Assembly (NCBI RefSeq): GCF_000756375.1
Contig: NZ_JNFD01000002.1
Location: 124,001 to 188,000, forward strand
Length of the DNA: 64,000 nucleotides
Origin: Sphingopyxis sp. LC81
Lineage (GTDB): Bacteria > Pseudomonadota > Alphaproteobacteria > Sphingomonadales > Sphingomonadaceae
Direction: 5' to 3'
A program made the translations under genes and the position numbers. Numbering within the stretch: the first letter of the stretch is position 1; each line of letters begins with the position of its first letter. Shown piece by piece: positions 41,164 to 64,000 of this stretch. The notes under the pieces were generated by a model. That model made no database searches. It was given only the letters and a program-made list of their open reading frames with translations, and had not been told where the DNA came from.

Positions 41164-41209
41164 GATCGATGATGAATATGAACGCTCGCGAAATGCTTCA
41201 TAATTGTCG

Positions 41210-42106: not shown

Positions 42107-42143
42107 TCGGCATGCGGCCTCAGGCACATTGCACGCTCAAGTC

Positions 42144-47615: not shown

Positions 47616-48658
47616 GCGGCGGTCTCGCGCGCCTTCAGCATGTCGAGCGCGACGTCGACGATCATATCCTCCTGCCCGCCGACCATCTTGCGGCGGCCGA
47701 GTTCGACGAGGATCGTGCGCGTGTCGAGGCCGTAGGTTTCGGCCGCCTTTTCGGCATGGCGCAGGAAGCTCGAATAGACACCCGCATAACCGAGCGCGAG
47801 CGTTTCGCGGTCGACGCGGACCGGGCGATCCTGAAGCGGGCGCACCAGATCCTCCGCTGCGTCCATCAGCGCATTGACGTCGCAGCCATGGTTCCAGCCC
47901 TTGCGGTCGGCGGCGGCGATGAAGACCTCGAGCGGCGCATTGCCCGCGCCCGCTCCCATGCCGGTGAGCGACGCGTCGATGCGCACCGCACCGCACTGCG
48001 CCGCGACGATGCTGTTCGCGACGCCGAGCGAGAGATTGTGGTGCGCGTGCATGCCGCGCTGCGTTTCGGGTTTCAGCACGCGGTCATAGGCTTCGAGCCG
48101 CGCCTTGACGCCGTCCATGTCGAGCGCGCCGCCGCTGTCGGTGACATAAACACACTGGGCGCCATAGCTTTCCATCAGCAGGGCTTGGCTCGCGAGCGCC
48201 TCGGGCTCGATCATATGGCTCATCATCAGGAAGCCCGCGACGTCCATGCCGAGATCGCGCGCGATGCCGATATGCTGCTTCGACACATCGGCCTCGGTGC
48301 AGTGCGTCGCGACGCGCACCGAGCGCACGCCGAGATCATAGGCGCGGCGAAGTTCCTCGACCGTGCCGACGCCGGGCAGGATCAGCGTGGTGAGCACCGA
48401 TTTCGTCAGCACCGAGGCGACCGCCTCCAGCCATTCCCAGTCGGTGTGCGCGCCGAAGCCATAGTTGAAGCTGGCGCCGCTCAGGCCGTCGCCATGCGCG
48501 ACTTCGATCGCGTCGACCCCTGCGTCGTCGAGCGCCTTTGCGATCGCCTTCACCTCGTCGATGCCGTACATATGGCGGATCGCGTGCATCCCGTCGCGCA
48601 GGGTGACGTCCTGAATATAGAGCTTGTCGCCCGCCTCGACGTTGAATGTCTTCGTCAT
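47612..48658 (-). CDS. 4-hydroxy-2-oxovalerate-type aldolase (HsaF/BphI/DmpG family)
   Basis: The 348-residue class II aldolase splits 4-hydroxy-2-oxoacids into pyruvate and an aldehyde that is passed to the partner dehydrogenase. Seen are the [15 protein letters not shown] block with metal and catalytic residues, [18 protein letters not shown], and [19 protein letters not shown] with the two His metal ligands. The C-terminal region ends with KARETAA. The order with the next gene (acylating acetaldehyde dehydrogenase) is conserved, since both form a channelled complex. It overlaps both neighbours by four bases. Confidence 0.95.
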
Positions 48659-49599
48659 GCGGTCACCTTCTTTCCTTCGCGGATGCGCTGCGCGAGCAGT
48701 TCGCCGGTCGCCTTGGCGGCGGCGGTCATGATGTCGAGATTGCCCGAATAGCTGGGCAGGTAATCGCCCGCGCCCTCGACCTCGAGCAGGATCATCGTCT
48801 TGATGCCCGTAAACTCGCCGCGCCCGGGAATCTTCAGCTTGTTGTTGTCGCCGAAGCGCTCGAACTGCACCTCCTGCTTCAGGCGATAGCCGGGCACATA
48901 GGCCTGCACCTTTTTCACCATCGCCTCGACCGAGGCACGGATGGTGTCTTCGTCGGCGCCTTCGGACAGGGTGAAGACCGTGTCGCGCATAATCATCGGC
49001 GGTTCGGCGGGGTTCAGGATGATGATCGCCTTGCCCTGCGCCGCGCCGCCGACCTTTTCGATCGCGCCCGCGGTGGTGCGGGTGAACTCGTCGATATTGG
49101 CGCGCGTGCCGGGGCCCGCCGAGCGCGACGAGACCGACGCGACGATTTCGGCGTAATGGACGGTCGCGACCTGGCTGACCGCGGCGACCATCGGGATCGT
49201 CGCCTGTCCGCCGCACGTCACCATATTGACGTTGCCGGCATCGAGATTGGCATCGCCGTTGACGGTCGGGATCGTATAGGGACCGATCGCCGCGGGGGTC
49301 AGGTCGACGACCTGCTTGCCGTCGGCGCGCAGCGCCGCGTCGTGCACCTTGTGCGCATAGGCGCTGGTCGCGTCGAAGACGATCCCGATCTCGGGATAGA
49401 CGTCCATCGCCTTGAGCCCGTCGAGGCCCTCGTGCGTCGTCGCGACGCCGCGCTCGCGCGCCATGGCGAGCCCTTCGGATTTCTCGTCGATGCCAACGAC
49501 CGCGACCAGCTCCATATTCTGCGGATATTTGATCATCTTGATCATCAGGTCGGTGCCGATATTGCCCGAACCGATGATCGCTGCCTTCACGCGGGTCAT
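48655..49599 (-). CDS. Acetaldehyde/propanal dehydrogenase, acylating (HsaG/BphJ/DmpF family)
   Basis: A 314-residue enzyme that converts the aldehyde from the aldolase to acyl-CoA with NAD+ and CoA. The NAD fold begins with [20 protein letters not shown], the catalytic Cys is in [12 protein letters not shown], and the C-terminal [20 protein letters not shown] is family-like. In steroid degraders the equivalent HsaG acts on propanal. It is coupled by overlap to the aldolase gene downstream. Confidence 0.95.
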
Positions 49600-49608
49600 G
49601 GGTTTTCC

Positions 49609-50397
49609 TTATACAAAGCGCGCGACGCAATGGCCGAGCGTGCGGCGGCCGTCGCCGAGGATCATTTCGAAGATGTCGCCCTTGGCCGCGGGCGCGAGCG
49701 GGACGAGGCTGCCCGACAGGATGATGTCGCCGGCATCGAGCGTCACGCCATGCGCGCCAAGCGTATTGGCGAGCCACGCGACCGCCTGCGCGGGGTCGCC
49801 CTGCACCGCATGGCCATAGCCTTCGGAAAGCGGCGATCCGTTTTTCGCGACCGCAACATGCAGGTTCGGCAGATCGAGTCCGCGCGGATCGATCCGTTCC
49901 TTGCCGAGCACAAAGACCCCGCACGAGGCGTTGTCGGCAACCGTGTCGACAATGCCGATCTTCCAGTCGGTGATGCGGCTGTCGACGATCTCGAAACAGG
50001 GGGCGATGCTCGCGGTCGCCGCGATCACGTCGGCGGCGGTCACGCCGGGACCGTTCAGGCTGTCCTTCAGGATGAAAGCGATCTCGGCTTCGGCGCGCGG
50101 CGCGATCAGCGCTTTCGCGTCGATGTCGATATCGCCCTCGACATACATCCAGTCGGTGAGGAAGCCGAAATCGGGCTGGTGGACGCCCAACATGTCCTGC
50201 ACCGCCTTCGACGTGACGCCGATCTTCTTGCCGACGACGCGCTCGCCGTCCTTCAGTCGCCGCGACAGGAAGTCGAGGCTGATCGCATAGGCGTCGTCGA
50301 TCGTCAGCGACGCATCGCGCGCGATCAGCGGTGCGACCGTGCGCCGGTCGCGCAGCGCCTCATAGAGCTCGCGCCCGTATGTTTCAGCGATGCTCAT
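49609..50397 (-). CDS. 2-keto-4-pentenoate hydratase-type enzyme (HsaE/BphH/MhpD family)
   Basis: About 262 residues. It hydrates a 2-hydroxypenta/hexa-dienoate to the 4-hydroxy-2-oxoacid used by the aldolase. Family blocks are [48 protein letters not shown] with the metal-binding Glu pair, and [14 protein letters not shown]. The frame also allows a start at 50415, six codons earlier; I used 50397, which reduces overlap with the hydrolase gene. It is third in the minus-strand pathway order. Confidence 0.93.
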
Positions 50398-51202
50398 CAA
50401 GGAACTCGATTGCATAACGGTTGAATTCGCTCGCGCGCTCGACCTGCACCCAGTGGCCGACCTTGTTGAAGGTCACGCAGCGCACATCGTCGCAGGCTTC
50501 GAAGAAATACTGGATGCCCGAGAGCGGCATGAAGCGTTCGTTCTGGCCCCAGAAGAGCAGGATCGGGATCTTGATCTCGCCGAGCCGCGGGCGGACATTA
50601 TGCGTCCGCATCCGCGTGATCACTTCCTTGGGCTGCTGGCTCGCGACCGCGAAGCGTTCCTCGACCAGCGCGTCGGTAATGTGCTTCGGGTCGTAAACCA
50701 GATTTTCGCCGAGGCGCCGCTGGTCGGCGAGGCTGAAGTCGGGGCTGCCGAAGGAGGAGCGCATGTCGGCGATGCCGGGCATCGCGAAATAGACGTCGAG
50801 TTCCTCGATGCAGCCGGGCGCCATCAGGATCAGCCGCTCGACGAATTCGGGATGGTCCTGCGTCATCTGGATCGCGACGCCGCCGCCGAGCGAATTGCCG
50901 ATCAGCGTCGCGCTCTCGACCCCGTGCGCCTTCAGCGCTTCGTACAGCGTGTCGGTGAACAAGGTCAGCGTATAGTCGATGTCTTCGGGCTGCGAAGAGG
51001 CGCCATAGCCGATCAGGTCGGGCAGGATCACGCGGTAACCCGCCGCGACGAACGCATCGACATTCTGCCGGAAATTGGACAGCCCCGACGCGCCGGGACC
51101 GCTGCCGTGGACGAACACCAGCGCCGGGCCTTCGCCCGTTTCCTTGATGTGGATGTCATAGCCGCCCGCGACGCGGTGGGTCGTTTCCTTCATCTCTCCC
51201 AT
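50384..51202 (-). CDS. Meta-cleavage product C-C hydrolase (HsaD/BphD-like)
   Basis: A 272-residue alpha/beta-hydrolase cutting the ring-opened product into a dienoate and an acid. FVHGSGPGASGLSNFRQN is the oxyanion region typical of meta-cleavage hydrolases, the nucleophile lies in LIGNSLGGGVAIQM and the His in KVGHWVQVERASEFN. The acidic member, normally Asp in GRDDR-type loops, is Glu here (FWGQNERFMPL). GAGGAAACC precedes the start. It lies 12 bases after the oxygenase gene and overlaps the hydratase start. Confidence 0.9.
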   Translation of the reverse strand: MGEMKETTHRVAGGYDIHIKETGEGPALVFVHGSGPGASGLSNFRQNVDAFVAAGYRVILPDLIGYGASSQPEDIDYTLTLFTDTLYEALKAHGVESATLIGNSLGGGVAIQMTQDHPEFVERLILMAPGCIEELDVYFAMPGIADMRSSFGSPDFSLADQRRLGENLVYDPKHITDALVEERFAVASQQPKEVITRMRTHNVRPRLGEIKIPILLFWGQNERFMPLSGIQYFFEACDDVRCVTFNKVGHWVQVERASEFNRYAIEFLDEHR

Positions 51203-51214
51203 GGCGGTTTCCTC

Positions 51215-52426
51215 TTACATGAATGTGAAGGCGGGCGGTTCGCCGAGCATCGTCATGACGACGTCGGTGGTGCGATTGCCGGGATCGTTCGCGACGTGCG
51301 CGCGCGCCGCATTGAGGTCGAGCCATGGCTGGATGATCGCGCTCGACATATAGACGGCGCGGCCGCCGAGGAGCTGGACCATGCCGTCGACCAGCTCGGC
51401 GAGCCGCCGCACGACGGTCGAGGACTGGTAGGCATAGAGCGCGCGCTCCTCGAGCGTGATCGGCTCGCCGCTTTCGGACTTCGCCATCAGCCGGTCGAAG
51501 GTCGTCTGGTGCGTCAGCTCCATTTCGAGGATCTGCGCATGCGCCTTGGCGATCGCGCCGTGGAGCAACGGATCGGCCTTCGACGCCTTGCCGGTGTTGG
51601 TCGAGATGCGGCCCTGCATGATCTCCATCGCAGCATTCACCGCGGCGCGCGCGCCGCCGAACGCTGCGGTCGACACCGACCGGACGAAGACCTGCGCCCA
51701 GGGCAGGCGATAGAGGGGGCCGTCATTCTCGGCCTGGCCGGGATTGGTGCAGGCAAAGCCGTCGCTGGCGCGGTGGGTGCGGTGTTCGGGGACGAAGACG
51801 CGCTCGACGAGGATGTCGAAGCTGCCGGTGCCCTGCAGCCCGAAGACGTCCCACGTCCCCTCGATGACCTGATAGTCGCCACGCGGGAGCAGGAAGGTGC
51901 GCATGTCGGGCGGGCCGCCGTCGGTGTCGAAGTTGAGCGCGCCGAGCAGCACCCAGCCGCAATGCGTCGAGCCTGACGAAAAGCCCCAACGGCCCGAGAG
52001 GTAAAAGCCGCCCTCGACCTTCTCGACCTTGCCCACCGGCTGATAGGTCGACGAGACGAGCATCGCGCCGCCATTGTCGCCCCACACCTCGCGCTGGGCT
52101 TCGTCATGAAAAAGCGCGAGTTCATAGGGGTGGCAGCCGAGCACACCATAGATCCAGCCGGTCGACATGCAGCCTTCGGCGAGCGCCTTCTGCACCTCGA
52201 AGAAGACATTGGGGTGCATTTCATAGCCGCCCCAGCGCTTCGGCTGCAGGATGCGGAAGAAGCCCGCGTCCTGCATCTCGGCGACGGTTTCGGCCGGGAC
52301 ATTGCCGTCGAGCGTCGTCTGACGCGCGCGCGCCTTCAGCGTCGGGATCATCGCGCGCGCGCGCTCGATCAATTGTTCGGGGGTGGGCAGGGCGGTGTCG
52401 CCGGCTGGTTTGGGGGCGGTGGCCAT
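51215..52426 (-). CDS. Acyl-CoA-dehydrogenase-fold flavin monooxygenase, oxygenase component (HsaA-like)
   Basis: The 403-residue protein matches the two-component flavin hydroxylase family of HsaA: PTLKARARQTTLDGNVPAET at the start, ILQPKRWGGYEMHPNVFFEV, WGFSSGSTHCGWVLLGAL and a C-terminal PGNRTTDVVMTMLGEP. HsaA hydroxylates the phenolic steroid intermediate 3-HSA to the catechol. The reduced flavin normally comes from HsaB, for which no gene is visible here. GAGGAG precedes the ATG at 52426; the longer frame upstream is promoter sequence. It is first in the minus-strand operon and divergent from the extradiol dioxygenase. Confidence 0.88.
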   Translation of the reverse strand: MATAPKPAGDTALPTPEQLIERARAMIPTLKARARQTTLDGNVPAETVAEMQDAGFFRILQPKRWGGYEMHPNVFFEVQKALAEGCMSTGWIYGVLGCHPYELALFHDEAQREVWGDNGGAMLVSSTYQPVGKVEKVEGGFYLSGRWGFSSGSTHCGWVLLGALNFDTDGGPPDMRTFLLPRGDYQVIEGTWDVFGLQGTGSFDILVERVFVPEHRTHRASDGFACTNPGQAENDGPLYRLPWAQVFVRSVSTAAFGGARAAVNAAMEIMQGRISTNTGKASKADPLLHGAIAKAHAQILEMELTHQTTFDRLMAKSESGEPITLEERALYAYQSSTVVRRLAELVDGMVQLLGGRAVYMSSAIIQPWLDLNAARAHVANDPGNRTTDVVMTMLGEPPAFTFM

Positions 52427-52809: not shown

Positions 52810-53700
52810 ATGGCGATCAGGTCACTGGCCTATGTCGTGGTCGATACGGCCGATGTCGAAGCCTGGCGGGCCTATGCCGAGCAAGTGCTGGGCATGCAGG
52901 CGATCGACCATGCGGGCGGGCTGCGCCTCAGGATGGACGAGCGCCCCTTCCGTATGCTGATTCGGGCGGGCGACGCCGAGCAGTTTCACGCCGCGGGGCT
53001 CGTCTATCCCGACAAGGCCGCCTTCGATCGCGGTATTGCGGGGCTTCGCGATGCCGGCGTTGCGATCGAGCCCGCGACGGCCGACGAAGCGAAGGACCGC
53101 CATGTCGTCGAGTTCGTGCGCTGCACCGATCCCTCGGGCAACCGGCTCGAGCTCGGCTGGGGGCGCGTAGTCGACGGCAACCCGTTCGTCTCGCCCGCGG
53201 GCGTATCCGAATTCATCACGGGCGAGATGGGGATGGGGCATGTCGTCTTTCCCGCGGCCAAGCTCGCCGAGACGCGCGCTTTCTATATCGACCTGCTCGG
53301 CTTCGGCGACACCGACGAGATGCGCGTCTATATGCAGGGCGGCGGACCCGACGATCCGGGGCTCGGCCTCCATTTCCTCCACTGCGACAATCCGCGCCAC
53401 CACAGCGTCGCGCTCGCCGAATTCCCCGTGCCGAGCGGGCTTGTCCACATGATGGTCGAGGTGCCGGGCCTCGACGATGTCGGCCGCGCGCTCGACCGCG
53501 CGAAAGCGGCGAACGTCCATATCTCGTCGAGCCTCGGCAAGCATATGAACGACAAGATGGTCAGCTTCTACATGCGCAGCCCCGGCGGCTTCGACATCGA
53601 ATATGGCTTCGGCGGCATCCAGCCCGACTGGAAGAGCTTTACCCCGACGATCAGCCTCAAGGAAGACGAATGGGGTCATCACTGGGACTTCGGCGGCTGA
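52810..53700 (+). CDS. Type I extradiol ring-cleavage dioxygenase (HsaC/BphC-like)
   Basis: A 296-residue two-domain vicinal-oxygen-chelate protein. The N-terminal module (AYVVVDTADVEAWRAYAEQV) is structural; the C-terminal module has the Fe(II) ligands: His in GMGHVVFPA, His in LVHMMVEVPG and Glu in FDIEYGFGG. TFTPTIS/HHWDFGG at the end is typical. It would cleave the catechol made by the HsaA-like enzyme, next to the hydroxylated carbon. AAAGGG lies upstream of the ATG at 52810. Divergent from hsaA, first of the plus-strand set with KSI, thiolase and SDR. Confidence 0.92.
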   Translation: MAIRSLAYVVVDTADVEAWRAYAEQVLGMQAIDHAGGLRLRMDERPFRMLIRAGDAEQFHAAGLVYPDKAAFDRGIAGLRDAGVAIEPATADEAKDRHVVEFVRCTDPSGNRLELGWGRVVDGNPFVSPAGVSEFITGEMGMGHVVFPAAKLAETRAFYIDLLGFGDTDEMRVYMQGGGPDDPGLGLHFLHCDNPRHHSVALAEFPVPSGLVHMMVEVPGLDDVGRALDRAKAANVHISSSLGKHMNDKMVSFYMRSPGGFDIEYGFGGIQPDWKSFTPTISLKEDEWGHHWDFGG

Positions 53701-53749: not shown

Positions 53750-54127
53750 ATGCCCAGCCATGACGATATGGTCCGCGCCGTCGAGCGCTATGTCGAAGCC
53801 TTCGACAAAGGCGACGCCGCAATGGCATCCGGCCTTTATTCTGACGACGCGACGGTCGAGGATCCGATCGGCACCCCGATCCACCAGGGACGCGACGCGA
53901 TCCACGCTTTCTATTCGATGTCGATGCAGGCGGGCGCCAAGCTCCGCCTCGACGGCCCGGTGCGCACCGGCGGCGACTATGCCGCCTTCGCCTTCACCGT
54001 GCTCGTCGACTTCGGCGGGGCAAAGGAAATCGAGGTGATCGACACCTTTAAATTCGACGCCGAGGGCAAAGTGACCGAGATGCGCGCCTATTGGAACCCC
54101 GCTAACATGCGCGCAGTCGAGGCCTGA
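53750..54127 (+). CDS. Delta5-3-ketosteroid isomerase (KSI)
   Basis: The 125-residue protein has exactly the length of the Comamonas testosteroni enzyme and keeps its catalytic residues: Tyr14 in VERYVEAF, Asp38 in TVEDPIGT and Asp98 in EVIDTFKF (one residue earlier than Asp99 in Comamonas). It moves a C5-C6 double bond into conjugation with the 3-keto group. GGAGAG precedes the ATG at 53750. This gene is the strongest single clue that the surrounding cluster handles steroids. The stop is one base before the thiolase start region, so the two are coupled. Confidence 0.92.
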   Translation: MPSHDDMVRAVERYVEAFDKGDAAMASGLYSDDATVEDPIGTPIHQGRDAIHAFYSMSMQAGAKLRLDGPVRTGGDYAAFAFTVLVDFGGAKEIEVIDTFKFDAEGKVTEMRAYWNPANMRAVEA

Positions 54128-54128
54128 G

Positions 54129-55334
54129 ATGGCACGCGAAGCCGCCATCGTTTCGACCGCGCGCACCGGCGTCGGCAAGGCCTATCGCGGTGCGCTCAAC
54201 GACACCGAGGCGCCCGTGCTGGCGGCGCATGTCGTCAACGCCGCGATCGAACGCGCCGGGATCGATCCGGCGCGGATCGACGACGTCTATCTGGGCGTCG
54301 GCAACCACTGGAACACGCAGAGCTATAATCTCGGTCGGCTGACGGTTCATGGTTCGGTGCTTCCCGATTCGACCGGCGGCTTCACGCTCGACCGCAAATG
54401 TTCGTCGGGGCTCAACGCGCTCGCGCTCGCCGCGCGCGGGATCATCGCCGACGAGATCGACGTCGCGGTCGCGGGCGGGATGGAGAGCATCTCGCTCACC
54501 CTCAACAAGCACACCCCGGCCTTTCGCAACCGCTCGGAGTTCATCAAGGCCGCCGATCCCCACGCCTATATGGCGATGATCGAGACCGCCGAGATCGTCG
54601 CCGATCGCTATGGCGTCAGCCGCGAGGCGCAGGACGCGTTCGCCGCGACCAGCCAGCAGCGCGCGGGCGCGGCGCAGGCCGCGGGGCGCTTTGCCGACGA
54701 AATCGTGCCGATCACCGTCACCAGGGCGCTGTTCGACAAGGAAGGCAATGAAACCGGCAAGGAAGCAGTGACGCTGGCGCATGACGAGGGCGTGCGCGGC
54801 GACACCACCGCCGAAAAGCTCGCGGGCCTGAAGCCCGTGTTCAAGGACGGGCTGGTCGTCAAGGAAGGCCGCCATATCACCGCGGGCAACGCCAGCCAGC
54901 TTTCCGACGGCGCCTCGGCGCAGGTCGTCATGGACCGCGCGACGGCCGAGAAGGAAGGGCTGCCGATCCTCGGCATCTATCGCGGTTTTCAGGTCGCGGG
55001 CTGCAAGGCCGAGGAAATGGGCATCGGTCCGGTCTTCGCGATCCCCAAACTGCTCGAACGCAACGGTCTCAAGATCGACGACATCGGCCTCTGGGAAATC
55101 AACGAGGCGTTCGCGAGCCAGGCGCTTTATTGCCGCGACAAGCTCGGCATCGATCCCGACAAGCTCAACGTCAACGGCGGCGGCATCGCGATCGGCCATC
55201 CGTTCGGGATGACGGGCTCGCGCCTCGTCGGCCATGCGCTGATAGAGGGCAAGCGCCGCGGCGTCCGCTATGCGGTCGTCTCGATGTGCGTCGCGGGCGG
55301 CATGGGCGCCGCCGGCCTGTTCGAAATCGTCTGA
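54129..55334 (+). CDS. Thiolase family acyltransferase
   Basis: A 401-residue degradative-type thiolase. The nucleophilic Cys is in DRKCSSGLNALALAAR near residue 92, the catalytic His in NGGGIAIGHPFGMTGSR and the second Cys in SMCVAGGMGAAGLFE. NEAFASQAL is another family block. It would cleave a 3-oxoacyl-CoA, plausibly from the steroid side chain (a FadA5-like role) or from C/D-ring breakdown. It starts one base after the KSI stop and is followed by an SDR with AGGAGG before its start. Confidence 0.92.
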   Translation: MAREAAIVSTARTGVGKAYRGALNDTEAPVLAAHVVNAAIERAGIDPARIDDVYLGVGNHWNTQSYNLGRLTVHGSVLPDSTGGFTLDRKCSSGLNALALAARGIIADEIDVAVAGGMESISLTLNKHTPAFRNRSEFIKAADPHAYMAMIETAEIVADRYGVSREAQDAFAATSQQRAGAAQAAGRFADEIVPITVTRALFDKEGNETGKEAVTLAHDEGVRGDTTAEKLAGLKPVFKDGLVVKEGRHITAGNASQLSDGASAQVVMDRATAEKEGLPILGIYRGFQVAGCKAEEMGIGPVFAIPKLLERNGLKIDDIGLWEINEAFASQALYCRDKLGIDPDKLNVNGGGIAIGHPFGMTGSRLVGHALIEGKRRGVRYAVVSMCVAGGMGAAGLFEIV

Positions 55335-55351
55335 ATCAAAAGGAGGCAGCG

Positions 55352-56107
55352 ATGGCGTTGTTGTTCGAAGGAAAAACCGCTTTCGTCACCGGCGGGGGCA
55401 GCGGCATCGGCCGCGCCGCCGCGCTGGCCTTTGCCGCCGAGGGCGCGAAGGTCGCGATCGGCGATCTCAATGGCGACAGCGCGGCCGAAACCGCCGCGCT
55501 GATCCGCGGCGAGGGCGGCGAGGCGCATCATGGCGCGCTCGACGTCACCGACGGGGGCGCGGTCGACGCCTTTGTCGACGATGTCGTAGTGCGCTGGGGG
55601 CGGCTCGATTGCGCGTTCAACAATGCCGGGGTCTCGCTCGAGGGGATGGAAACCCCGTGGGGCGACCTCACCGCCTATGATCGCACGATCGCGGTCAACC
55701 AGCGCGGGTTGCTGCTCTGCATGGCCGCGGAACTGCGCCATATGGAAAAGGCGGGTCGCGGCGCGATCGTCAACACCGCGTCGATCGCGGGCATGGCGGG
55801 CGCCGGGGGCGCCGGCTATTGCGGGTCGAAGCATGCGGTCGTCGGGCTCACGCGCTCGGCGGCGATGCGCTACGCCGCGCAGGGCATCCGCATCAACGCG
55901 GTCTGCCCCGGCGCGATCCGCACGCCGATGGTCGATGCGGTGGTGAAGGAGGAAGCGGCGGCGCGCTTCGTGGCCGAAATGCACCCGATGAACCGCATCG
56001 GCGAAGCGCATGAAATTGCCGACGCGGTGATCTTCCTCTGCTCAGACAAGGCGAGTTTCATCACCGGGCATCCGCTCGCGGTCGACGGCGGTTATCTGGC
56101 GCGCTGA
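55352..56107 (+). CDS. Short-chain dehydrogenase/reductase (hydroxysteroid dehydrogenase-like)
   Basis: A 251-residue classical SDR: cofactor motif VTGGGSGIGRAAALAFAAEG with Asp after the second strand (IGDLNGD), favouring NAD, then CAFNNAGVSLEG, the catalytic Ser in NTASIAGMAG, YxxxK in YCGSKHAVVGLTRS and PLAVDGGYLAR at the end. AGGAGG lies 5 bases before the ATG. Its position after KSI and thiolase makes a hydroxysteroid or hydroxyacyl-CoA oxidation likely. The C-terminal VDGGYLAR ending is typical of 3alpha/7alpha/20beta-HSD-like SDRs. Confidence 0.9.
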   Translation: MALLFEGKTAFVTGGGSGIGRAAALAFAAEGAKVAIGDLNGDSAAETAALIRGEGGEAHHGALDVTDGGAVDAFVDDVVVRWGRLDCAFNNAGVSLEGMETPWGDLTAYDRTIAVNQRGLLLCMAAELRHMEKAGRGAIVNTASIAGMAGAGGAGYCGSKHAVVGLTRSAAMRYAAQGIRINAVCPGAIRTPMVDAVVKEEAAARFVAEMHPMNRIGEAHEIADAVIFLCSDKASFITGHPLAVDGGYLAR

Positions 56108-56873: not shown

Positions 56874-58559
56874 TTATTGATTCACCCGCGTCGCATGCCG
56901 CGCCGCTAGCCAGCCGAAGGTCATCGCCGGGCCCAGCGTCGCCCCCGCGCCCGGATAGGTCCGTCCCATCGCGGCGGCCGAGGCATTGCCGATCGCATAG
57001 AGCCCGCCCAGCACCTTGCCATCCTTGTCCAGCACCCGGCCATTGTCGTCGGTGAGCAGCCCGCCGTTGGTGCCAAGGTCGCACGGATAGATGGGGATGG
57101 CGTAGAAGGGGGCTTCGGCGATCGGCGCGAGCGTCGGATTCGGCGCCACTGATGCGTCGCCATAATGCCGGTCATAGGCGGAAGCGCCGCGGCCGAAATC
57201 GGGATCCTCGCCCTTGAGCGCATTGGCGTTGAAGCGCGCAATTTCCTTGGAAAGCACGGCGGCGTCGACGCCGATCTCCTTCGCCAGCCCGGCAAGGGTT
57301 CCGGCCTTTTTCAAGATCTTGCGCATCGCCTCGGGCATGCGGCCGTCGGCCGACGGTTTGCCCGCCATCATCGGCCCGAGCATATATTTGCCGCGATAGC
57401 GCGCGTCGAACACGAACCAGGAGGGGGCGGTGGGCGCCTCGGGGGTGTTGCAGCGGTGCATCTCGCCCCCCGCGACATGATAGGACGCCGCCTCGTTCAT
57501 GTAGCGGCGACCCGCCTGGTTGACGATGATCGACGAGGGCAGCGCGCGTTCGACGAACATGATCCGCGCCCGGTCCTCGCCCTCAAGCAGGAAGCCGGGA
57601 CCCCACCAGGCCGAATCCATCAGCGCGGTAGCGGCACCCGCCGCGAGTCCGGCCTTCAGGCCGTCGCCGGTATTGCTCGGCACCCCCGCGCTCCAGTCGG
57701 CCGAGGTCGGATGTGGCAGATATTTCTCGCGCAGCGCGGCGTCATGGTCGAAGCCGCCGCTGGCAATGATCACGCCGCGACGCGCGCGAACCTCGATCCG
57801 CTGGCCGTCGCGTTCGACGATCGCGCCGGTGATCCCGCTCTTGTCCCGGACCAGCTCGACCATCGGCGCATTCAGCCAGATCGGCACGCCCTTTTCGTCG
57901 ATCGACAGCTTGAGCCGTCCGATCAGCGCGTTGCCGCCGGTCAGCCGCCGCGACCGCTTGGTCTTGAAGCGCCAGGGCAGGTCGAACATATATTTGAGCA
58001 TCAGCTTGAACAGCAAAGGCTTGGCGCCGGGGCTCATGGTCAGGAGCAGCTTGGCTTCCTCCATCGTCCAGGTGAAGCGGCCAAAGGTCAGCGTCAGCGT
58101 GTGCGGCGGCTCCATTCGGTCGAAATCCGCACCGAGCCTGTCGGCCATCAACGGGATCGGGTCGTGCGTCCGCCACCCGTCGCGTGCGCCCGCGACGTCC
58201 ATATGATAATCGGAATAGGCATAGGCGGTGTAGCGAACCTCGGACCGTTCCTCGAGATAGCTCAGCATCCGGTGCGCATTGTCGACATAGGCCCTGAGCT
58301 TGGTTTCGGGCACATCGTCGCCGATCAGCGTCTTGATATAGCCCAGCGCTTCGTTCGGGTCGTCGGCATGGCCCTTGGCGCGTGCGTCATCGCTATTGGG
58401 AATCCAGATGCCGCCGCCCGACGTCGCGGATGTCCCGCCATAACGCGCGCTTTTCTCGACAACCAGAACGTCGGCGCCGGCATCGGCGGCGGTGAAGGCC
58501 GCGGTCAGCGCCCCCGCACCCGATCCGATCACCAATATGTCGACTTCGTGAAACGCCAC
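56874..58559 (-). CDS. kstD: 3-oxosteroid 1-dehydrogenase (KstD)
   Basis: A 561-residue FAD enzyme that desaturates C1-C2 of 3-ketosteroids. The FAD motif is ILVIGSGAGALTAAFTAADAG, with the KSARYGGTSATSGGGIWIP block that follows it in KstDs. The C-terminal block YPCDLGTNGGLLTDDNGRVL with the active-site Tyr/Gly region, and GNASAAAMGRTYPGAGAT, fit KstD more closely than other fumarate-reductase-like flavoproteins. I used GTG 58559, with AGGAG eight bases upstream; the frame runs on to 59006 without conserved sequence. It is divergent from two Lrp-type regulators. Confidence 0.88.
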   Translation of the reverse strand: MAFHEVDILVIGSGAGALTAAFTAADAGADVLVVEKSARYGGTSATSGGGIWIPNSDDARAKGHADDPNEALGYIKTLIGDDVPETKLRAYVDNAHRMLSYLEERSEVRYTAYAYSDYHMDVAGARDGWRTHDPIPLMADRLGADFDRMEPPHTLTLTFGRFTWTMEEAKLLLTMSPGAKPLLFKLMLKYMFDLPWRFKTKRSRRLTGGNALIGRLKLSIDEKGVPIWLNAPMVELVRDKSGITGAIVERDGQRIEVRARRGVIIASGGFDHDAALREKYLPHPTSADWSAGVPSNTGDGLKAGLAAGAATALMDSAWWGPGFLLEGEDRARIMFVERALPSSIIVNQAGRRYMNEAASYHVAGGEMHRCNTPEAPTAPSWFVFDARYRGKYMLGPMMAGKPSADGRMPEAMRKILKKAGTLAGLAKEIGVDAAVLSKEIARFNANALKGEDPDFGRGASAYDRHYGDASVAPNPTLAPIAEAPFYAIPIYPCDLGTNGGLLTDDNGRVLDKDGKVLGGLYAIGNASAAAMGRTYPGAGATLGPAMTFGWLAARHATRVNQ

Positions 58560-58791: not shown

Positions 58792-59313
58792 TTGCGCACG
58801 GCAACCAAGGCCGGGAAAAGGACGCGGGGCAAGGCCGCGAACGCGAACCAGGGTGACGGGCTGCCGGCGCTCGACGACGTCGACGAGCAGATCATCGCCG
58901 CGCTTCGCAAAAATGGCCGGATTGCAAACCGCGACATCGCGCGCGAGATGGGGCTGAACGAAGCGACGGTGCGCACGCGGCTGCGCCGGCTCGAGGATGC
59001 CAGCATGGTGCGCGTCGTCGCGATGCGCGACCTTTCGGCGATGGGTTTTGGCTATCTGGCTCCCGTCGGCGTGCAGGTGAAGGGGCGGTCGGCGGGCGAT
59101 GTCGGCGCAGAGATCGCCGAACTGGAGCGCGTCATCACGGTCAATGTCGCGATCGGAACGCATGACCTCGAAATCCAGGTGGTGGCCGAAACGCTGGAGG
59201 AGATGCAGCATCTCCTGACCGGTGTGATCGCCAAGATCGACGGGGTCGAGCGGCTGTTCCCCAGCCTCGCGCTCAAGGTTTTCAAATATAATCCGGAATG
59301 GGCACCGCTATGA
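58792..59313 (+). CDS. Lrp/AsnC-family transcriptional regulator 1
   Basis: The 173-residue protein has a basic leader (residues 1-20), the Lrp helix-turn-helix (DVDEQIIAALRKNGRIANRD, REMGLNEATVRTRLRRLED) and a C-terminal RAM domain (YLAPVGVQVKGRSAGD, GTHDLEIQVVAETLEEM). I chose TTG at 58792, which follows GGGGAGAAGAGG; the frame is open further upstream across the kstD promoter. Its stop overlaps the second Lrp gene by four bases. It is a candidate to bind the shared motif at 58653-58666. Confidence 0.85.
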   Translation: MRTATKAGKRTRGKAANANQGDGLPALDDVDEQIIAALRKNGRIANRDIAREMGLNEATVRTRLRRLEDASMVRVVAMRDLSAMGFGYLAPVGVQVKGRSAGDVGAEIAELERVITVNVAIGTHDLEIQVVAETLEEMQHLLTGVIAKIDGVERLFPSLALKVFKYNPEWAPL

Positions 59314-59780
59314 GCGCCAGAATCAGCCTCGACGAGCTCGATCACAAGATCATCGAACGGCTCGGCCATGATGCGCGCGTTTCGAACCGCGAGATCGGGC
59401 GCGAATTCGACCTGACCGAAGGGACGATCCGCTCGCGCCTCAAGCGGTTGCTCGACAACAGGGTGATCCGCGTCGCCGCGGTCACCAACGCCAACCGGCT
59501 CCGCAACCCGATCCTCGCCTATCTCTGGGTCGAGGCGGACAGCGCCGCGGACATCGAGAAGGTTGCGGAGAGCCTCGCGAGCCTGCCCGAGATCGGCTTT
59601 GTCGCGACGACGCTGGGCCGCGCCGACGTGCTCGCGATGACGCTGGTCGAAAACGGCAATGAGCTGACCGATTTCCTGCACCAGACGATCGACAAGATCC
59701 CCGGCGTGCGGCGTGTCCGCTACAGTCTGGGGCAGAATTTCATCAAGCACGACTATCGCTGGTGCGCGCTGGTCGATTGA
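59310..59780 (+). CDS. Lrp/AsnC-family transcriptional regulator 2
   Basis: A 156-residue Lrp-type protein: HTH in LDELDHKIIERLGHDARVSN and EFDLTEGTIRSRLKRLLDN, and a RAM domain with AYLWVEADSAADIEKVAES and FVATTLGRADVLAMTLVENG. It starts with ATGA overlapping the stop of the preceding regulator, so both are probably made in equal amounts and may form a hetero-oligomer. Sequence identity between the two is moderate in the HTH. Confidence 0.88.
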   Translation: MSARISLDELDHKIIERLGHDARVSNREIGREFDLTEGTIRSRLKRLLDNRVIRVAAVTNANRLRNPILAYLWVEADSAADIEKVAESLASLPEIGFVATTLGRADVLAMTLVENGNELTDFLHQTIDKIPGVRRVRYSLGQNFIKHDYRWCALVD

Positions 59781-59795
59781 TGAATTGTCGGCGGG

Positions 59796-60263
59796 CTACC
59801 CCGCCACCCAGTTTGCCTTGATCCCGTCGTCGGCCAGCGTGCCGTCGACGATCACGCGGGGGTCAGAGCGGCTATAGCTGATCCGCCAACCCTCGGGCGT
59901 GCGGCGATAGCGGTCGTGATAGAAATTGGCGAGCAGTCGGAAACTCCCGGCGCGCGGGTCATAGGTCGCATAGCCCAGATTCCAGCGTGCGCTCGCCTCA
60001 TCGCCCTTCACCTCGATCTCGGCATTATGCCCCTGATGCACGTCGATGATCGGCGTCGTCGCCGCCATTTGCGTGAACACCCCAATCAGCCCGTCGAGGT
60101 CGAATTCGCCGACGGGCGGAAAATCGATCACCGCATCCTCGGTGAAGCAGGCGCGGATCGCGTCGACATCCTTCGCGTCGCAGGCATTGAGGTAACGCGC
60201 CTTCAGGCGGCGGATGTCGCTTTCGGCTTCCAGCCGCGCGATACGGGATTCAAGGTCGGTCAT
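59796..60263 (-). CDS. SnoaL-like/NTF2-fold protein, BaiE-like dehydratase candidate
   Basis: A 155-residue protein of the SnoaL_4 type. Aligned by eye to bile-acid 7alpha-dehydratase BaiE as I remember it, Tyr24 (KARYLNACD) matches Tyr30, Asp29 matches Asp35 and His76 (DVHQGHN) matches His83, each with the same spacing; the second catalytic Asp (106) corresponds to Tyr98. A coiled N-terminal helix with SRIARLEAESDIRRL is also shared. Hydroxysteroid dehydratases of this fold are known in bile-salt-degrading sphingomonads. It is last in a tightly overlapping operon and overlaps the DUF1214 stop by 14 bases. Confidence 0.75.
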   Translation of the reverse strand: MTDLESRIARLEAESDIRRLKARYLNACDAKDVDAIRACFTEDAVIDFPPVGEFDLDGLIGVFTQMAATTPIIDVHQGHNAEIEVKGDEASARWNLGYATYDPRAGSFRLLANFYHDRYRRTPEGWRISYSRSDPRVIVDGTLADDGIKANWVAG

Positions 60264-61344
60264 TGATGGGGATTATCCTGGTTTCGGGGATGGGATGGTC
60301 GTCGGCGCCGATCCAGCGCAGCAACATGGTGCCCTGATGGTGCCCCGCAGTATCGATCCAGTTGCCGAAGCCCGGATCGCGGTCGGCGACGATCAGCGTC
60401 AGCGTGCCGTCGTCGTTCAGCCGCGCGCTATGCCCGTTCACATGGATGCGGTGATGGCGATAATCGAGCGATTCCATCCAGTAATTGTCGAGCTGGAAAT
60501 TCCAGAAGCTGCATGCGGGCACGCGCGTGTCGATGCGTAGCGCTTCGCCGGGTTCAAGCTGCCACCAGCCATGGAGATAGAAGATCGTCGGATCACCGCC
60601 CGCGCGGAAGAAGGGCGTCTGGTCGGTCGTCGCCAGCCGGTTCCTCTGGTTCGCCCGGAAATCCTCGGTCCACTGGACGAAAGTCCGCGCCGTGCCAGCA
60701 ACAAAGGCGGTGGTGCGCTCCAGCGCCGCCGCGAGCGTGTCGGCGGACAGTGGCGCGGGATGCGCGGGACCGTCGATCGCCTCGATCGTGACCGTCGCGG
60801 GCACTTCATTCGCACGGTCGAGAAAGGTCTGCCGCACGATCACCATCGAGCTGTCGTCGGCGAGCGGCAGCCAGTTGCCGTCGACCTTGTCGCGGCTGAC
60901 GATGATCTCGAACGATCCGTCGGGCGCAATCGCCAAATCGGCGGAATCGATCTCGCCGGTCGACGCCATCGTTCCGTCGACGGCATAGCGATTGGCCTTG
61001 GTGCCGAAGCTCAGGATCGGCACGCTGCCGCGCTGGCCGCGGATGCGATAGCGCCGCGCGCCCGAAACGGTCGCGTTCATATAGATATTGTCGGGATTGT
61101 CGGCGCCGATCTTCGCCGTCTCGTGCGATGCGGCGTAGAAGCTCGGAAAATCGGGGTCGGCATGTTCGAGCTGCATGTCGAACGCGATGCGCAGCAGCCG
61201 CGTGAGGTAGCGATAGCCCTCGGCGCGGTCGAGCGGGTTAGCGGCGGCTTCGGCGCCGGTGACGATCTCCCCCGCGGCTTCCAGCCGCCGGCAGAAATCG
61301 CGCCAGACATCGGGCGACAGGATAGGGCCCTCCGTCATCGTCAT
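60250..61344 (-). CDS. DUF1214-domain protein
   Basis: About 364 residues with no signal peptide. The C-terminal DUF1214 domain is recognised by CSFWNFQLDNYWMESLDY, HHRIHVNGHSARLNDDGTLTL and DPGFGNWIDTAGHHQGTMLL. The first half, with ANPLDRAEGYRYLTRLLRIA and DNIYMNATVSGARRYRIRG, matches the companion N-terminal region. The biochemical role is unknown; such proteins often occur next to steroid or terpenoid catabolic genes in actinobacteria and sphingomonads. The start at 61344 overlaps the SDR stop by four bases. Confidence 0.82.
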   Translation of the reverse strand: MTMTEGPILSPDVWRDFCRRLEAAGEIVTGAEAAANPLDRAEGYRYLTRLLRIAFDMQLEHADPDFPSFYAASHETAKIGADNPDNIYMNATVSGARRYRIRGQRGSVPILSFGTKANRYAVDGTMASTGEIDSADLAIAPDGSFEIIVSRDKVDGNWLPLADDSSMVIVRQTFLDRANEVPATVTIEAIDGPAHPAPLSADTLAAALERTTAFVAGTARTFVQWTEDFRANQRNRLATTDQTPFFRAGGDPTIFYLHGWWQLEPGEALRIDTRVPACSFWNFQLDNYWMESLDYRHHRIHVNGHSARLNDDGTLTLIVADRDPGFGNWIDTAGHHQGTMLLRWIGADDHPIPETRIIPINDRP

Positions 61345-62126
61345 GGCGCCATATACTGGCCGCCGTTGACGTCGAGCGTCGCGCCGGTGACCATTTTTGC
61401 ATAATCGGAGAGGAAGAAGAGCACGCTCTTCGCGCAATCCTCCTCGGGCGGAATGACGCCCAGCGGGATGCGCCCGGTGATCTCGCCGATCACCGCATCG
61501 CGGTCCTGCCCGCCCGCGGTCGCGCGGTCGATATAGTCATAGACGGGCTTGCCGCCGATCCAGCCCATCCGCGTCGCATTGACCCGGATGTTAAAGCGGC
61601 CAAGATCCTTGGCCATGTGCCTGGTCATCGTGGTCAGGCCGCCTTTTCCGGTGGCATAGCCGCCCTCGCCGGGGAAGGGGTTGACCTGCGACATGGTGGC
61701 GACGTTGACCACCGCGCCGCCGCCCTGCGCTTTCATCGCGGGAAGGACGGCCTGTGTCATCCGTAGCGCGCCGAGGCAGTTGACGTCGAACACCCGCGCC
61801 CAATCCTCGGGATCGGCCTCGTCCACCGTCACCCATTCCCCGTGGATATAGGCGGTGTTGACCAGTCCATCGATCCGCCCGAACGCGTCGGCGGTTGCCT
61901 TCGCCCGCGCCGCGCATTGGCCCGCATCGCCGACGTCGGTCGGCACCGCGACCGCCTCGCCGCCGTTCGCGCGAATCTCGCCGGCGACCGCTTCGATGAA
62001 ATCCCTGTTGCGCGCGCCGAGGCCGACTCTCGCGCCCTCGGCGGCGGCGATCCGCGCCATTGCCTGCCCCATGCCGGGGCCGACCCCGCTGATGATGATG
62101 ACCTTGTTCTTAAGCAGGCTCGGCAT
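61341..62126 (-). CDS. Short-chain dehydrogenase/reductase (BaiA/hydroxysteroid dehydrogenase-like)
   Basis: A 261-residue SDR: cofactor motif IISGVGPGMGQAMARIAAAEG (variant of GxxxGxG), Arg after the second strand (LGARNRDF) favouring NADP, LVNTAYIHGEW in place of NNAG, catalytic Ser in NVATMSQVNPFPG, YxxxK in YATGKGGLTTMT and VNGGQYMAP at the end. Two departures (NTAY for NNAG, TMSQ for the Ser block) mark a divergent subgroup. GGGAGAG precedes the ATG at 62126. It overlaps the OYE gene by 17 bases and the DUF1214 gene by four. Confidence 0.87.
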   Translation of the reverse strand: MPSLLKNKVIIISGVGPGMGQAMARIAAAEGARVGLGARNRDFIEAVAGEIRANGGEAVAVPTDVGDAGQCAARAKATADAFGRIDGLVNTAYIHGEWVTVDEADPEDWARVFDVNCLGALRMTQAVLPAMKAQGGGAVVNVATMSQVNPFPGEGGYATGKGGLTTMTRHMAKDLGRFNIRVNATRMGWIGGKPVYDYIDRATAGGQDRDAVIGEITGRIPLGVIPPEEDCAKSVLFFLSDYAKMVTGATLDVNGGQYMAP

Positions 62127-63363
62127 ATTTCTCTCCCGCAAAAATGTCCTTGAGCCCCGGGTCGAGCCCGTTGCCGACCTCCGGGCAATGCGTTCCCGAT
62201 GGGCCGTACATCGCGGCGACGCAGCGGTTGCACGCGGTGCAGCCCGAAACATCACTGGCGCCACTTTGCCATTTCGCGATCAGCGCCGGATCGTGGATCA
62301 GCGCGCGCGCCAGCGCGATCGCATCGAAGCCTTCGGCGACCGCCTGCCGTGCCCCGGCGAGCGACTGGATGCCCCCCAGATAGGCAAGCTTCATTGGCGT
62401 CCGGCCCAGCGCCGCCTTCAGCTGCAGCGCGGGCTCCATCAGGTAATTTTCGTGAAACGGGGGCAGCTTTGGCACGCTGCGCTTCAGGATCGCGAATTGC
62501 AGTTTCGCCAGCAGCCCGCCCTGCATCGCCGCAAGATCGTCATAGGGCAGCGCGCTGCCGAACATCGCCCATGTGCTTTCGATGTTGCGCCCCGCCGACA
62601 GCACCAGCATGTCGGCGCCCGCCGCTTCGAGCGCGCGCGCGGTCACAATCGCGTCGTCGACCGTCGCGCCGCCGGGCACCGCATCGGTCAGGTTGATCTT
62701 GGCGAGAATCGCGAGCCGCCCGCCGGTCGCACGCTTGACCGCCGCCAGTACCTCGGCAGGAAAGCGCGCGCGGTTCGCGGCCGATCCGCCATAGCCATCC
62801 TTGCGGAAGTTGGAGAGTGGCGAGATGAACTGGTTGAGCAGATAGCCATGCCCCATATGGATTTCGAGCGCATCGAAACCCGCTTCTTCGGCCAACTCTG
62901 CGGCGCGCGCGAACTCGCCCGTCACCATCTCCATGTCGGCGCGGGTCATTGCGCGCTGAAAAAAGCGGCCCTTCAATACCCCCATCTTGTCGATCCCGCC
63001 CGATGCCGACATTGCGCGCGGCGTCGACAGGTCGTCGATCTGGCAAAAGCTGCCGCCGTGGGTGATCTGCGCCGACGCCTTGGCGCCCTCGGCGTGGATC
63101 GCATCGGTGACCGCGCGGTAATGCGGCACGCTTTCGCGGCTCAGCATTCCCTGTCCGGGCAGCGTGCGGCCATCGGGCGAGACGGCGAGATAGGCGAGCG
63201 TCGTCATCCCCACGCCGCCGCGCGCATAGGCGCGGTGAAAATCCATGAGCGCGCGGGTGGGGAAGGTCGCCTTGCTCATCATCTCGTTCGCGCCCGAACG
63301 GATGAAGCGGTTTTTGAGCGTGAGCGGGCCGATCGTCACGGGGGTGAACGGATCGCCGGTCAT
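62110..63363 (-). CDS. Old Yellow Enzyme-family NADH:flavin oxidoreductase with Cys-rich tail
   Basis: A 417-residue FMN-dependent TIM barrel. VTIGPLTLKNRFIRSGANEM starts the fold, ASAQITHGGSF and EIHMGHGYLLNQFISPLSN (active-site H/H pair region) are family blocks, and YLGGIQSLAGARQAV with IALARALIHDP closes the barrel. The tail SGCTACNRCVAAM…HC holds four Cys like the Fe-S site of dienoyl-CoA reductase or BaiCD, but the FAD/NAD domains that follow in those enzymes are missing. An enoate or dienoate steroid reductase is likely. It overlaps the SDR by 17 bases and the second SnoaL gene by four. Confidence 0.88.
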   Translation of the reverse strand: MTGDPFTPVTIGPLTLKNRFIRSGANEMMSKATFPTRALMDFHRAYARGGVGMTTLAYLAVSPDGRTLPGQGMLSRESVPHYRAVTDAIHAEGAKASAQITHGGSFCQIDDLSTPRAMSASGGIDKMGVLKGRFFQRAMTRADMEMVTGEFARAAELAEEAGFDALEIHMGHGYLLNQFISPLSNFRKDGYGGSAANRARFPAEVLAAVKRATGGRLAILAKINLTDAVPGGATVDDAIVTARALEAAGADMLVLSAGRNIESTWAMFGSALPYDDLAAMQGGLLAKLQFAILKRSVPKLPPFHENYLMEPALQLKAALGRTPMKLAYLGGIQSLAGARQAVAEGFDAIALARALIHDPALIAKWQSGASDVSGCTACNRCVAAMYGPSGTHCPEVGNGLDPGLKDIFAGEKYAEPA

Positions 63364-63800
63364 GACGCGGGTTCCGCGATCAGGTCGGCGGGCGCGTCCT
63401 TGGCCCAGAAATCGGTTTCGACGCGCTTCGCGATCCGCCAGCCTTCGGCGGTGCGGACGAGATCGTCGACATAGGTACAGCCGACGAAAAACAGCTCATC
63501 GCCCGATGATCGCGCCAGCCGCATCGGGTTGAACAGCATCGTGCGCGCGCTCGCGCGGTCGCCTTCGAGCCGGATCAGCGGCAGTCCGATCAGGTGCTGG
63601 GTCAGCGGAAAGGATGCGAGCGCGCCCTTCAGCCACGCCTTCATCGTCGGCCATTCGCCCGCGGCGCCGCCCGCCGCGCGATAGTCGACCGTCGCGCCGG
63701 GGACGAACACCGCGTCCAGCGCGTCATAATCCTTCGCGTCGATCGCAAAGACATAGGCGGCGAGCAATTGCTGGATCGCGATGATGTCGTCGGCGCTCAT
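63360..63800 (-). CDS. SnoaL-like/NTF2-fold protein, second dehydratase candidate
   Basis: A 146-residue SnoaL_4-type protein. AIQQLLAAYVFAIDAKDYDAL carries the Tyr and Asp five residues apart, as in the first SnoaL protein of this operon (Tyr24/Asp29), and LTQHLIGLP supplies the His. The end WRIAKRVETDFWAKDAPADL is typical. The start at 63800 follows GGGACGAG. With the OYE, two SDRs and the other SnoaL it forms a coupled operon (4-17-base overlaps). The likely role is dehydration of a hydroxysteroid, but a plain binding protein cannot be excluded. Confidence 0.72.
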   Translation of the reverse strand: MSADDIIAIQQLLAAYVFAIDAKDYDALDAVFVPGATVDYRAAGGAAGEWPTMKAWLKGALASFPLTQHLIGLPLIRLEGDRASARTMLFNPMRLARSSGDELFFVGCTYVDDLVRTAEGWRIAKRVETDFWAKDAPADLIAEPAS

Positions 63801-63813
63801 CTTACTCGTCCCT

Positions 63814-64000
63814 TCAGCCGAAATTGGCCTGCCCACCGTCGAGCGGGATCGTCGCCCCGGTCAGATAGCTGAGGTCGGGGCCGCACAGCGCTGCCACCGC
63901 ATTGCCAATATCGTCCTCGCAGTCGCCGACGCGGCGCAGCGGGATCGTGCGGAAGAACGCCTCGGCCTCCTCCGGGTTGTCGTCGACCCAGCCTTGCAGT
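63814..64000 (-). CDS. Short-chain dehydrogenase/reductase, C-terminal part (runs off the right edge)
   Basis: The minus-strand frame from the window edge to the TGA at 63814-63816 encodes a typical SDR C-terminus: FFRTIPLRRVGDCEDDIGNA, ALCGPDLSYLTGATIPLDGG, then QANFG. It contains the substrate-loop end and the conserved GxxIPLDGG. It lies 13 bases upstream of the second SnoaL gene and belongs to the same operon. Confidence 0.85.
   Translation of the reverse strand, partial: LQGWVDDNPEEAEAFFRTIPLRRVGDCEDDIGNAVAALCGPDLSYLTGATIPLDGGQANFG

Follow-up and report, generated by a model that had tools for sequence, protein, structure and literature searches.

What is done by the run of minus-strand genes at the end of a 64,000-nt window of the Sphingopyxis sp. 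LC81 genome, where short-chain dehydrogenases (SDRs), SnoaL proteins, and an old yellow enzyme (OYE) are encoded together beside genes for steroid ring cleavage? An earlier note on this DNA had likened the run to the bai operon for bile acid 7α-dehydroxylation. Judging from the encoded proteins, we consider it probable that the operon is a module for oxidizing rings A/B and eliminating hydroxyls in aerobic 9,10-seco steroid catabolism, and that it is adapted to hydroxylated steroids, probably those of the 5β, bile acid type. The window is a stretch of contig C2; coordinates are given on the window, and genes beyond its edge were read from the same contig.

The note had described six overlapping genes, and six minus-strand frames were indeed found, with overlaps of 14, 4, 17, and 4 bases and one 13-base gap. 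These encode SnoaL53 (59796-60263), a SnoaL_4 protein of 155 residues; a DUF1214 protein of 364 residues (60250-61344); SDR55 (61341-62126), a putative hydroxysteroid dehydrogenase; OYE56 (62110-63363), an FMN-type OYE of 417 residues assigned to Oxidored_FMN; SnoaL57 (63360-63800), a SnoaL_4 protein of 146 residues; and SDR58 (63814-64560), of which the 3' part (63814-64000) lies inside the window and the 5' part past its edge. The two SnoaL proteins match Pfam SnoaL_4 at 6.5e-28 and 5.2e-30, and Pfam likewise bears out the DUF1214 and SDR (adh_short_C2) assignments. Beyond the window, SDR59 (64563 to about 65357) follows 2 bases from SDR58, with a GTG start picked by comparison with relatives, and 35 bases from it is a gene for a KshA_C Rieske oxygenase (65393-66472; Pfam 1.6e-62). 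The gene upstream of this KshA-type oxygenase is divergent, and the transcript likely comprises eight genes rather than six, with SDR59 and the oxygenase added at its head.

We then asked how often these genes occur together among 298 genomes of the family Sphingomonadaceae, with LC81 included. OYE56, counted as present at E <= 1e-60, was found in 17 of them. The other 16 OYE56 loci were all inspected together with some 10 kb of flanking sequence per side, contig ends permitting, and at 11 the genes for the OYE, SDR55, and the DUF1214 protein were consecutive on one strand, making 12 of the 298 genomes with LC81. At these 11 operon loci SDR59 was always present, SnoaL53 and SDR58 were each present in 10, and SnoaL57 in 5; at the remaining 5 of the 16 places the OYE was 48-59% identical and stood without the operon. 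The operon is a conserved set and not a chance pattern.

The steroid C/D-ring marker IpdA was present in all 12 operon genomes. It was found in 17/17 genomes with OYE56 versus 24/281 without (Fisher 7e-17, a raw value that ignores kinship). For the DUF1214 protein and SnoaL57 the count covered 80 genomes (41 with and 39 without IpdA, taken in handle order), and the former (E <= 1e-60) was present in 29/41 versus 0/39, the latter in 22/41 versus 0/39. SnoaL53-type genes (E <= 1e-20) occurred in 33 of the 298 genomes, every one of which has IpdA. Because the operon adjoins homologues of hsaACDEFG and kstD, and because all its carriers have IpdA, a steroid role for it is well supported; the sphingomonad host, the steroid context, and the neighboring ring-cleavage genes that had been claimed for this place are borne out. 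The marks of an aerobic 9,10-seco steroid cluster are present here, namely homologues of HsaA, HsaC, and HsaD, KstD, and KshA-type genes, with IpdA elsewhere in the genome.

In the pathway we propose, SDR58, SDR59, and SDR55 would oxidize or epimerize ring hydroxyls, and OYE56 would take the 3-keto A/B-ring system as its substrate, most likely desaturating it at Δ4 or, less likely, working as an ene-reductase. Since OYE56 lacks an FAD/NAD(P)H domain, its electrons would pass by way of an Fe-S cluster to a separate acceptor. SnoaL53 and SnoaL57 would then expel hydroxyls as water by vinylogous elimination to give Δ4,6-type dienones, KstD would introduce Δ1, the KshA-type oxygenase encoded at the head of the transcript would 9α-hydroxylate, and HsaA, C, D, E, F, and G would cleave rings A/B. 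Every substrate and reaction given here for the operon enzymes is predicted from sequence. The earlier note had the operon reduce dienes before ring cleavage; no such reduction is shown by our results, and in the Δ4,6 variant, as described in the review PMC8399759, the Δ6 bond is unreduced before 9α-hydroxylation.

The part assigned to OYE56 was examined through its domain content. Its FMN barrel is followed by the motif C-x2-C-x2-C-x11-C at residues 375-393, beyond which the protein continues for only about 24 residues. The four Cys are invariant in 26/26 aligned rows and would bind a 4Fe-4S cluster. The FMN and four-Cys parts are common to OYE56, the long 5β-Δ4-ketosteroid dehydrogenase (KSTD) Nov2c019, BaiCD, and BaiH, whereas the FAD/NAD(P)H domain of these enzymes is missing from OYE56 by Pfam assignment, length, and model alike. 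OYE56 is 31% identical over 381 residues to the long 5β-Δ4-KSTD homologue of pMSHV, a plasmid of S. herbicidovorans MH, with identical Cys spacing. When the predicted structure (pLDDT 87.8) was compared with known ones, the eight best matches were all three-domain Fe-S flavoenzymes, and 2-naphthoyl-CoA reductase, trimethylamine dehydrogenase, and histamine dehydrogenase, as well as 6-HPON amine oxidase and 2,4-dienoyl-CoA reductase, matched within Z 45.8-48.4 (residues 1 to about 404-417). Single-domain OYEs were behind, with Z up to 43.2, the best reaching about residue 371. OYE56 as modeled is the N-terminal part of the three-domain Fe-S flavoenzyme class minus its FAD/NAD(P)H module, and a separate electron partner is therefore likely.

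A place for such an enzyme is left by the work on Pseudomonas stutzeri Chol1. According to PMC8044976, this strain oxidizes 5β-3-ketosteroids, its sole long homologue is inactive and can be deleted without phenotype, and it is concluded from mutants that alternative enzymes must exist. We tentatively suggest that OYE56 might found a short OYE class (FMN plus 4Fe-4S) that is this alternative 5β-Δ4-KSTD of bile acid-degrading Proteobacteria, feeding two BaiE-like or Hsh2-linked dehydratases. The suggestion was examined in the genomes having SteC, the SnoaL dehydratase of the published steABCD set; 33 of the 37 genomes with a SteC match were used, 4 at only 37-47% identity being left out, and the long enzyme was counted absent where no match reached E <= 1e-120. 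All 33 had OYE56 or the long enzyme. OYE56 was present in 8/8 genomes lacking the long enzyme (from 6 genera) versus 7/25 having it (raw p 4.6e-4), and at the genus level in 6/6 genera versus 6/15 (p 0.019), a correlative test in which kinship is handled only crudely, by genus. Among the 8 IpdA-bearing genomes without SteC, only LC81 and one other (G168) have OYE56 or the long enzyme. One Pseudomonas also has an OYE56 relative within its HsaA..SteC cluster. PMC8044976 itself speaks against the suggestion, since no further homologue of the long enzyme is reported there for Chol1 and a protein of another family is surmised; a 31% relative such as OYE56 might have been noticed there. We lowered our estimate for this reason, and hold the assignment of OYE56 as the alternative enzyme to be possible but doubtful.

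The surroundings of OYE56 relatives in named genomes were read at the best 80 of 507 loci. Genes for the OYE, SDR55, and the DUF1214 protein stood together in the first 13 of these 80 (L038-L050), and the OYEs of Sphingopyxis sp. L1A2A, H053, and Root154 were 94-96% identical to OYE56. More distant relatives, at 51-64% identity, occur in steroid-type surroundings of other proteobacteria. In Pseudomonas pudica the gene lies between those for HsaA and HsaD, and next come genes for two SDRs, a relative of SteC (67%), HsaC, IpdA, and IpdB; in Azoarcus Aa7 its neighbor encodes an FAD protein sharing 60% identity with g40, and genes for SteD, SteC, and two SDRs are close by; in Thauera genomes it is accompanied by an SDR, a relative of KstD, and a protein of 529 residues, which in the copy scanned, from a metagenome-assembled genome (MAG), is an AMP-binding ligase; in Burkholderia guangdongensis by relatives of SnoaL57, SDR55, a sulfotransferase, and the DUF1214 protein; and in a Hyphomonadaceae MAG the order KstD, Lrp, Lrp, OYE, SnoaL53 is consecutive.

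Further genes were observed at the sphingomonad operon loci. Ten of the 11 (L022, L023, L025-L032) have a gene of the sulfotransferase family (a relative of g64) close to the operon; sulfation is unexpected in a catabolic cluster, yet the sulfotransferase relative recurs by the operon. A third SnoaL gene stands between SDR58 and SnoaL57 in two relatives (L022:8309-8842 and L023:8359-8886; Pfam SnoaL_2 for the L022 copy). After SnoaL53, with a 4-base overlap, there is an acyl-CoA dehydrogenase-type gene of 384 aa in two others (L030:5883-7037 and L031:12908-14062; Pfam on the L030 copy), and a 384-aa gene also follows SnoaL53 in L028.

The dehydratase role proposed for the two SnoaL proteins was examined by comparison with the SnoaL_4 proteins of Azoarcus Aa7, pMSHV, and the N. 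aromaticivorans plasmid pNL2. The best matches of SnoaL53 were pMSHV RS16615 (37%) and SARO_RS19100 (32%), and those of SnoaL57 a protein encoded at 352 kb of pNL2 (54%) and pMSHV RS16270 (48%); the nearest relatives of both are on the steroid plasmids of bile salt degraders, and best matches to non-steroid families, which would have contradicted the earlier note, were not obtained. BaiE itself best matched proteins encoded at 18 kb of Aa7 contig C30 (37%) and at 385 kb of pNL2 and 860 kb of pMSHV (32-34%). According to PMC12175502, use of the Δ4,6 variant is confirmed for S. herbicidovorans MH and N. aromaticivorans F199, and BaiE is homologous to Hsh2; PMC8399759 states that Azoarcus Aa7 needs Hsh2. 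On these grounds, and by their similarity to BaiE, we took the three proteins as putative Hsh2.

Two trees were computed, a quick one and a careful one of 66 rows. Both exclude six far SnoaL rows, and the careful one also drops a misread SteC row (L185) present in the quick tree. In the careful tree SnoaL53 (12 rows) forms its own clade (support 100/97) and joins the Hsh2-like proteins, BaiE, and g65, another SnoaL protein of LC81, in one larger clade (100/97); it falls outside the Hsh2, BaiE, and g65 group at 94/82, a branching left unresolved in the quick tree. SteC joins the larger clade at 97/85, and SnoaL57 (8 rows, 100/99) stands apart. By sequence, then, SnoaL53 is a separate subfamily, sister of the Hsh2/BaiE group. 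It shares with that group not only the supported clade but also Tyr, Asp, and His positions that are invariant in 11/11 aligned SnoaL proteins, BaiE included, and that we take to be the catalytic residues of BaiE. SnoaL53 is accordingly named here as a candidate hydroxysteroid dehydratase. Hsh2-like proteins of at least 50% identity (25 of the 52 genomes matched, 27 with a best match under 50% being left out) are additionally present in 9 of the 12 operon genomes, which sets SnoaL53 further apart from Hsh2. An NCBIfam scan of the SnoaL proteins gave none that reached a curated cut-off. A fold search was dropped as a discriminator for SnoaL53, with BaiE (Z 16.0-17.4), LinA (17.4-17.5), and an uncharacterised protein (18.6) close or tied.

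SnoaL57 belongs to a different family from SnoaL53, and its relatives often adjoin Hsh2-like genes; of the 18 genomes having a SnoaL57-type gene as well as an Hsh2-like gene, 7 have the two no more than 200 bp apart. SnoaL53-type genes were found in 31/33 SteC-bearing genomes. For the 21 genomes with a non-operon-type SnoaL53 that also have SteC, distances to SteC were taken from one best match per genome, as for all gene distances, the 12 operon-type matches not being entered; the two genes were on the same contig in 16 and within 10 kb in 12. Both SnoaL families, as classified by sequence, belong with steroid catabolism, and neither is Hsh2 or SteC. The identification of SnoaL53 or SnoaL57 as Hsh2 was rejected, the proteins of the BaiE clade being those of Aa7, S. 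herbicidovorans, and N. aromaticivorans together with g65.

These results bear directly on the likeness to the bai set, under which the operon would be a 7α-dehydroxylation set in an aerobe, with equivalents of BaiE, BaiCD/BaiH, and BaiA. SnoaL53 does lie within the BaiE/Hsh2 clade at large, and this part of the earlier claim of BaiE-like SnoaL proteins stands, whereas orthology fails for SnoaL53 and SnoaL57 is of another family altogether. Likewise, OYE56 has two of the three domains of BaiCD, but with the third missing it scores 153.7 bits against the BaiCD cut-off of 825. The genes of 56874-66472 include none for a CoA ligase, a CoA transferase, or a transporter of bile acids. With neither a BaiE orthologue nor a three-domain BaiCD/BaiH, the identification as a bai operon was rejected; the likeness, as far as sequence tells, is one of resemblance only, and we consider a bai-like set here very unlikely.

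The second known system to be weighed is steABCD, also called hsh1-sor1, of Comamonas testosteroni TA441, P. stutzeri Chol1, and Sphingobium sp. Chol11. In PMC13101464 and PMC8399759 (Table 1), SteA and SteB are SDRs, SteC is the SnoaL dehydratase, and SteD is an alkene reductase. Because this dehydroxylation module in an aerobic steroid cluster has been published, one at the present locus would not be new in kind. The operon could be a second, non-orthologous module of this type, in which an SDR oxidizes, a SnoaL protein dehydrates, and OYE56 reduces the new C=C bond; the chemistry is published, and the same enzyme classes (two SDRs, a SnoaL/NTF2 protein, and an alkene reductase) are encoded in one operon. 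The operon differs in adding a DUF1214 protein, a third SDR, a second SnoaL, and KshA; moreover, its SnoaL proteins are not orthologous to SteC, nor is its OYE to SteD. Orthology of these members was rejected on the grounds that SnoaL53 and SnoaL57 form clades apart from SteC and that OYE56 is only 34% identical over 224 residues to SteD/Sor1, which lack the Cys motif and belong to a different model class, N-ethylmaleimide reductase being the best-scoring model for Sor1; Aa7 SteD and S. herbicidovorans Sor1 are 61% identical over 357. For SteA and SteB the best SDR matches stood at 34-42%. Of the 12 operon genomes, 10 also carry SteC at 66% identity or more. OYE56, having no nicotinamide-binding domain, would by analogy with the large Fe-S enzymes need a reducing partner, an argument that is not decisive because single-domain OYEs take NAD(P)H directly. 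On balance we regard a second reductive module of the steABCD type as unlikely. A literature search on SnoaL, DUF1214, and OYE in steroid degradation returned no title or abstract opening that describes the operon, some genes of which may already figure in Feller et al. 2021.

Several observations weigh against the operon being an oxidation and elimination module for bile acid-type steroids. In the LC81 genome no match was obtained for SteC at E <= 1e-30 or for the long 5β-Δ4-KSTD at E <= 1e-120, and the most Hsh2-like protein there is g65 (38%); growth of LC81 on bile acids is consequently only putative. These absences, at the thresholds used, favor an operon serving other hydroxylated steroids or terpenoids (e.g., polyhydroxylated sterols) that feed the same ring-cleavage genes without bile acids being a substrate, an alternative we consider quite unlikely given that most carriers have SteC (10/12) and Hsh2-like genes (9/12). 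The IpdA relative of LC81 (53%) is on another contig, C21; contig C2, of which 317,684 bases were searched, gave no match. Many of the best 80 named loci had no recognisable steroid neighbors when compared with the window genes; at some of the 80 (e.g., L101, L110, L113, L115, and L116) the gene finder yielded few or no genes and the surroundings were left unjudged. On the plasmids of Sphingobium TomTYG64 and TomTYG65 no steroid genes were found around the OYE relatives (61-63%), and the OYE56 family may have further roles outside steroid clusters. At the other two of the four loci viewed in the plasmid collection, Burkholderia arboris had only esterase and regulator relatives, and Novosphingobium KACC 22771 a KshA relative (62%). 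Finally, function is promiscuous within the SDR and NTF2 families, and a shared fold is by itself not enough to tell BaiE from LinA or ketosteroid isomerase (KSI)-like proteins.

The remaining operon proteins also have relatives in S. herbicidovorans. SDR58 is 63% identical to RS16240, whose gene directly adjoins that of the homologue WP_234810817.1 of Hsh3, a 7β-hydroxysteroid dehydratase. LC81 has g77, an EthD protein encoded beyond the window (contig C2:207682-208395; window coordinates 83682-84395) and 54% identical over 177 residues to that homologue. By this likeness g77 is a candidate 7β-hydroxysteroid dehydratase; Hsh3 is of EthD type and is absent from the operon. SDR55 is 58% identical to RS16635, the neighbor of an EthD-SnoaL fusion gene. 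In that fusion, pMSHV RS16630 (17118-17930 of the locus read), an EthD domain of Hsh3 type and a SnoaL_4 domain of Hsh2 type are in one chain, joining both known hydroxysteroid dehydratase domain types, and the gene adjoins that of the SDR55 relative. The DUF1214 protein is 50% identical to RS16460, whose gene overlaps a SnoaL gene beside C/D-ring genes, and has a strong relative in the unannotated PDB entry 6ans (3.4e-112); its role would be accessory. The gene for g65 (contig C2:194809-195258; window coordinates 70809-71258, beyond the window) is beside a sulfotransferase gene; g65 is the closest BaiE/Hsh2 relative in LC81, with 29-30% identity to BaiE, and forms a clade with Hsh2-like proteins at 97/85.

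On the other side of SnoaL53 are two Lrp/AsnC-type regulator genes on the plus strand, the first (58792-59313) encoding a protein 40% identical to S. herbicidovorans RS16605 and the second (59298-59780; Pfam) overlapping it; an Lrp pair near SnoaL53 is also found in S. herbicidovorans and a Hyphomonadaceae MAG. Next is the minus-strand gene for the KstD-like FAD protein of the 3-ketosteroid dehydrogenase family (56874-58559; 48% to pMSHV RS16315), which matches 3-oxosteroid dehydrogenase models under their curated cut-offs. On the plus strand are genes for a SnoaL_2 protein, a thiolase (82% to pMSHV RS16480), and an SDR (53750-56107), and for an HsaC-type extradiol dioxygenase (52810-53700; 48% to S. 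herbicidovorans RS16560). The HsaF, HsaG, HsaE, HsaD, and HsaA homologues are encoded on the minus strand (47612-52426) and are 59-96% identical to those of S. herbicidovorans, with 96% for HsaF and HsaG and 77% for HsaA against pMSHV. Another FAD protein (46143-47615, minus strand) is 67% identical to pMSHV RS16675, itself a putative 5α-Δ4-KSTD going by the gene order in Chol11. Farther off, a GH20 hexosaminidase, an RpiR-type regulator, and a GntP permease (39037-43490) make up an apparently unrelated aminosugar set.

Two gaps are stated in the literature, the A-ring desaturation of 5β-steroids (PMC8044976) and parts of the sphingomonad Δ4,6 pathway (PMC8399759). The operon points to concrete genes for both, namely the short OYE, the SnoaL53 subfamily, and the Hsh2-linked SnoaL57 family, all of them open to cloning and to assay on existing substrates. 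Genomes of alpha-, beta-, and gammaproteobacteria carry the short OYE, in many cases beside steroid genes.

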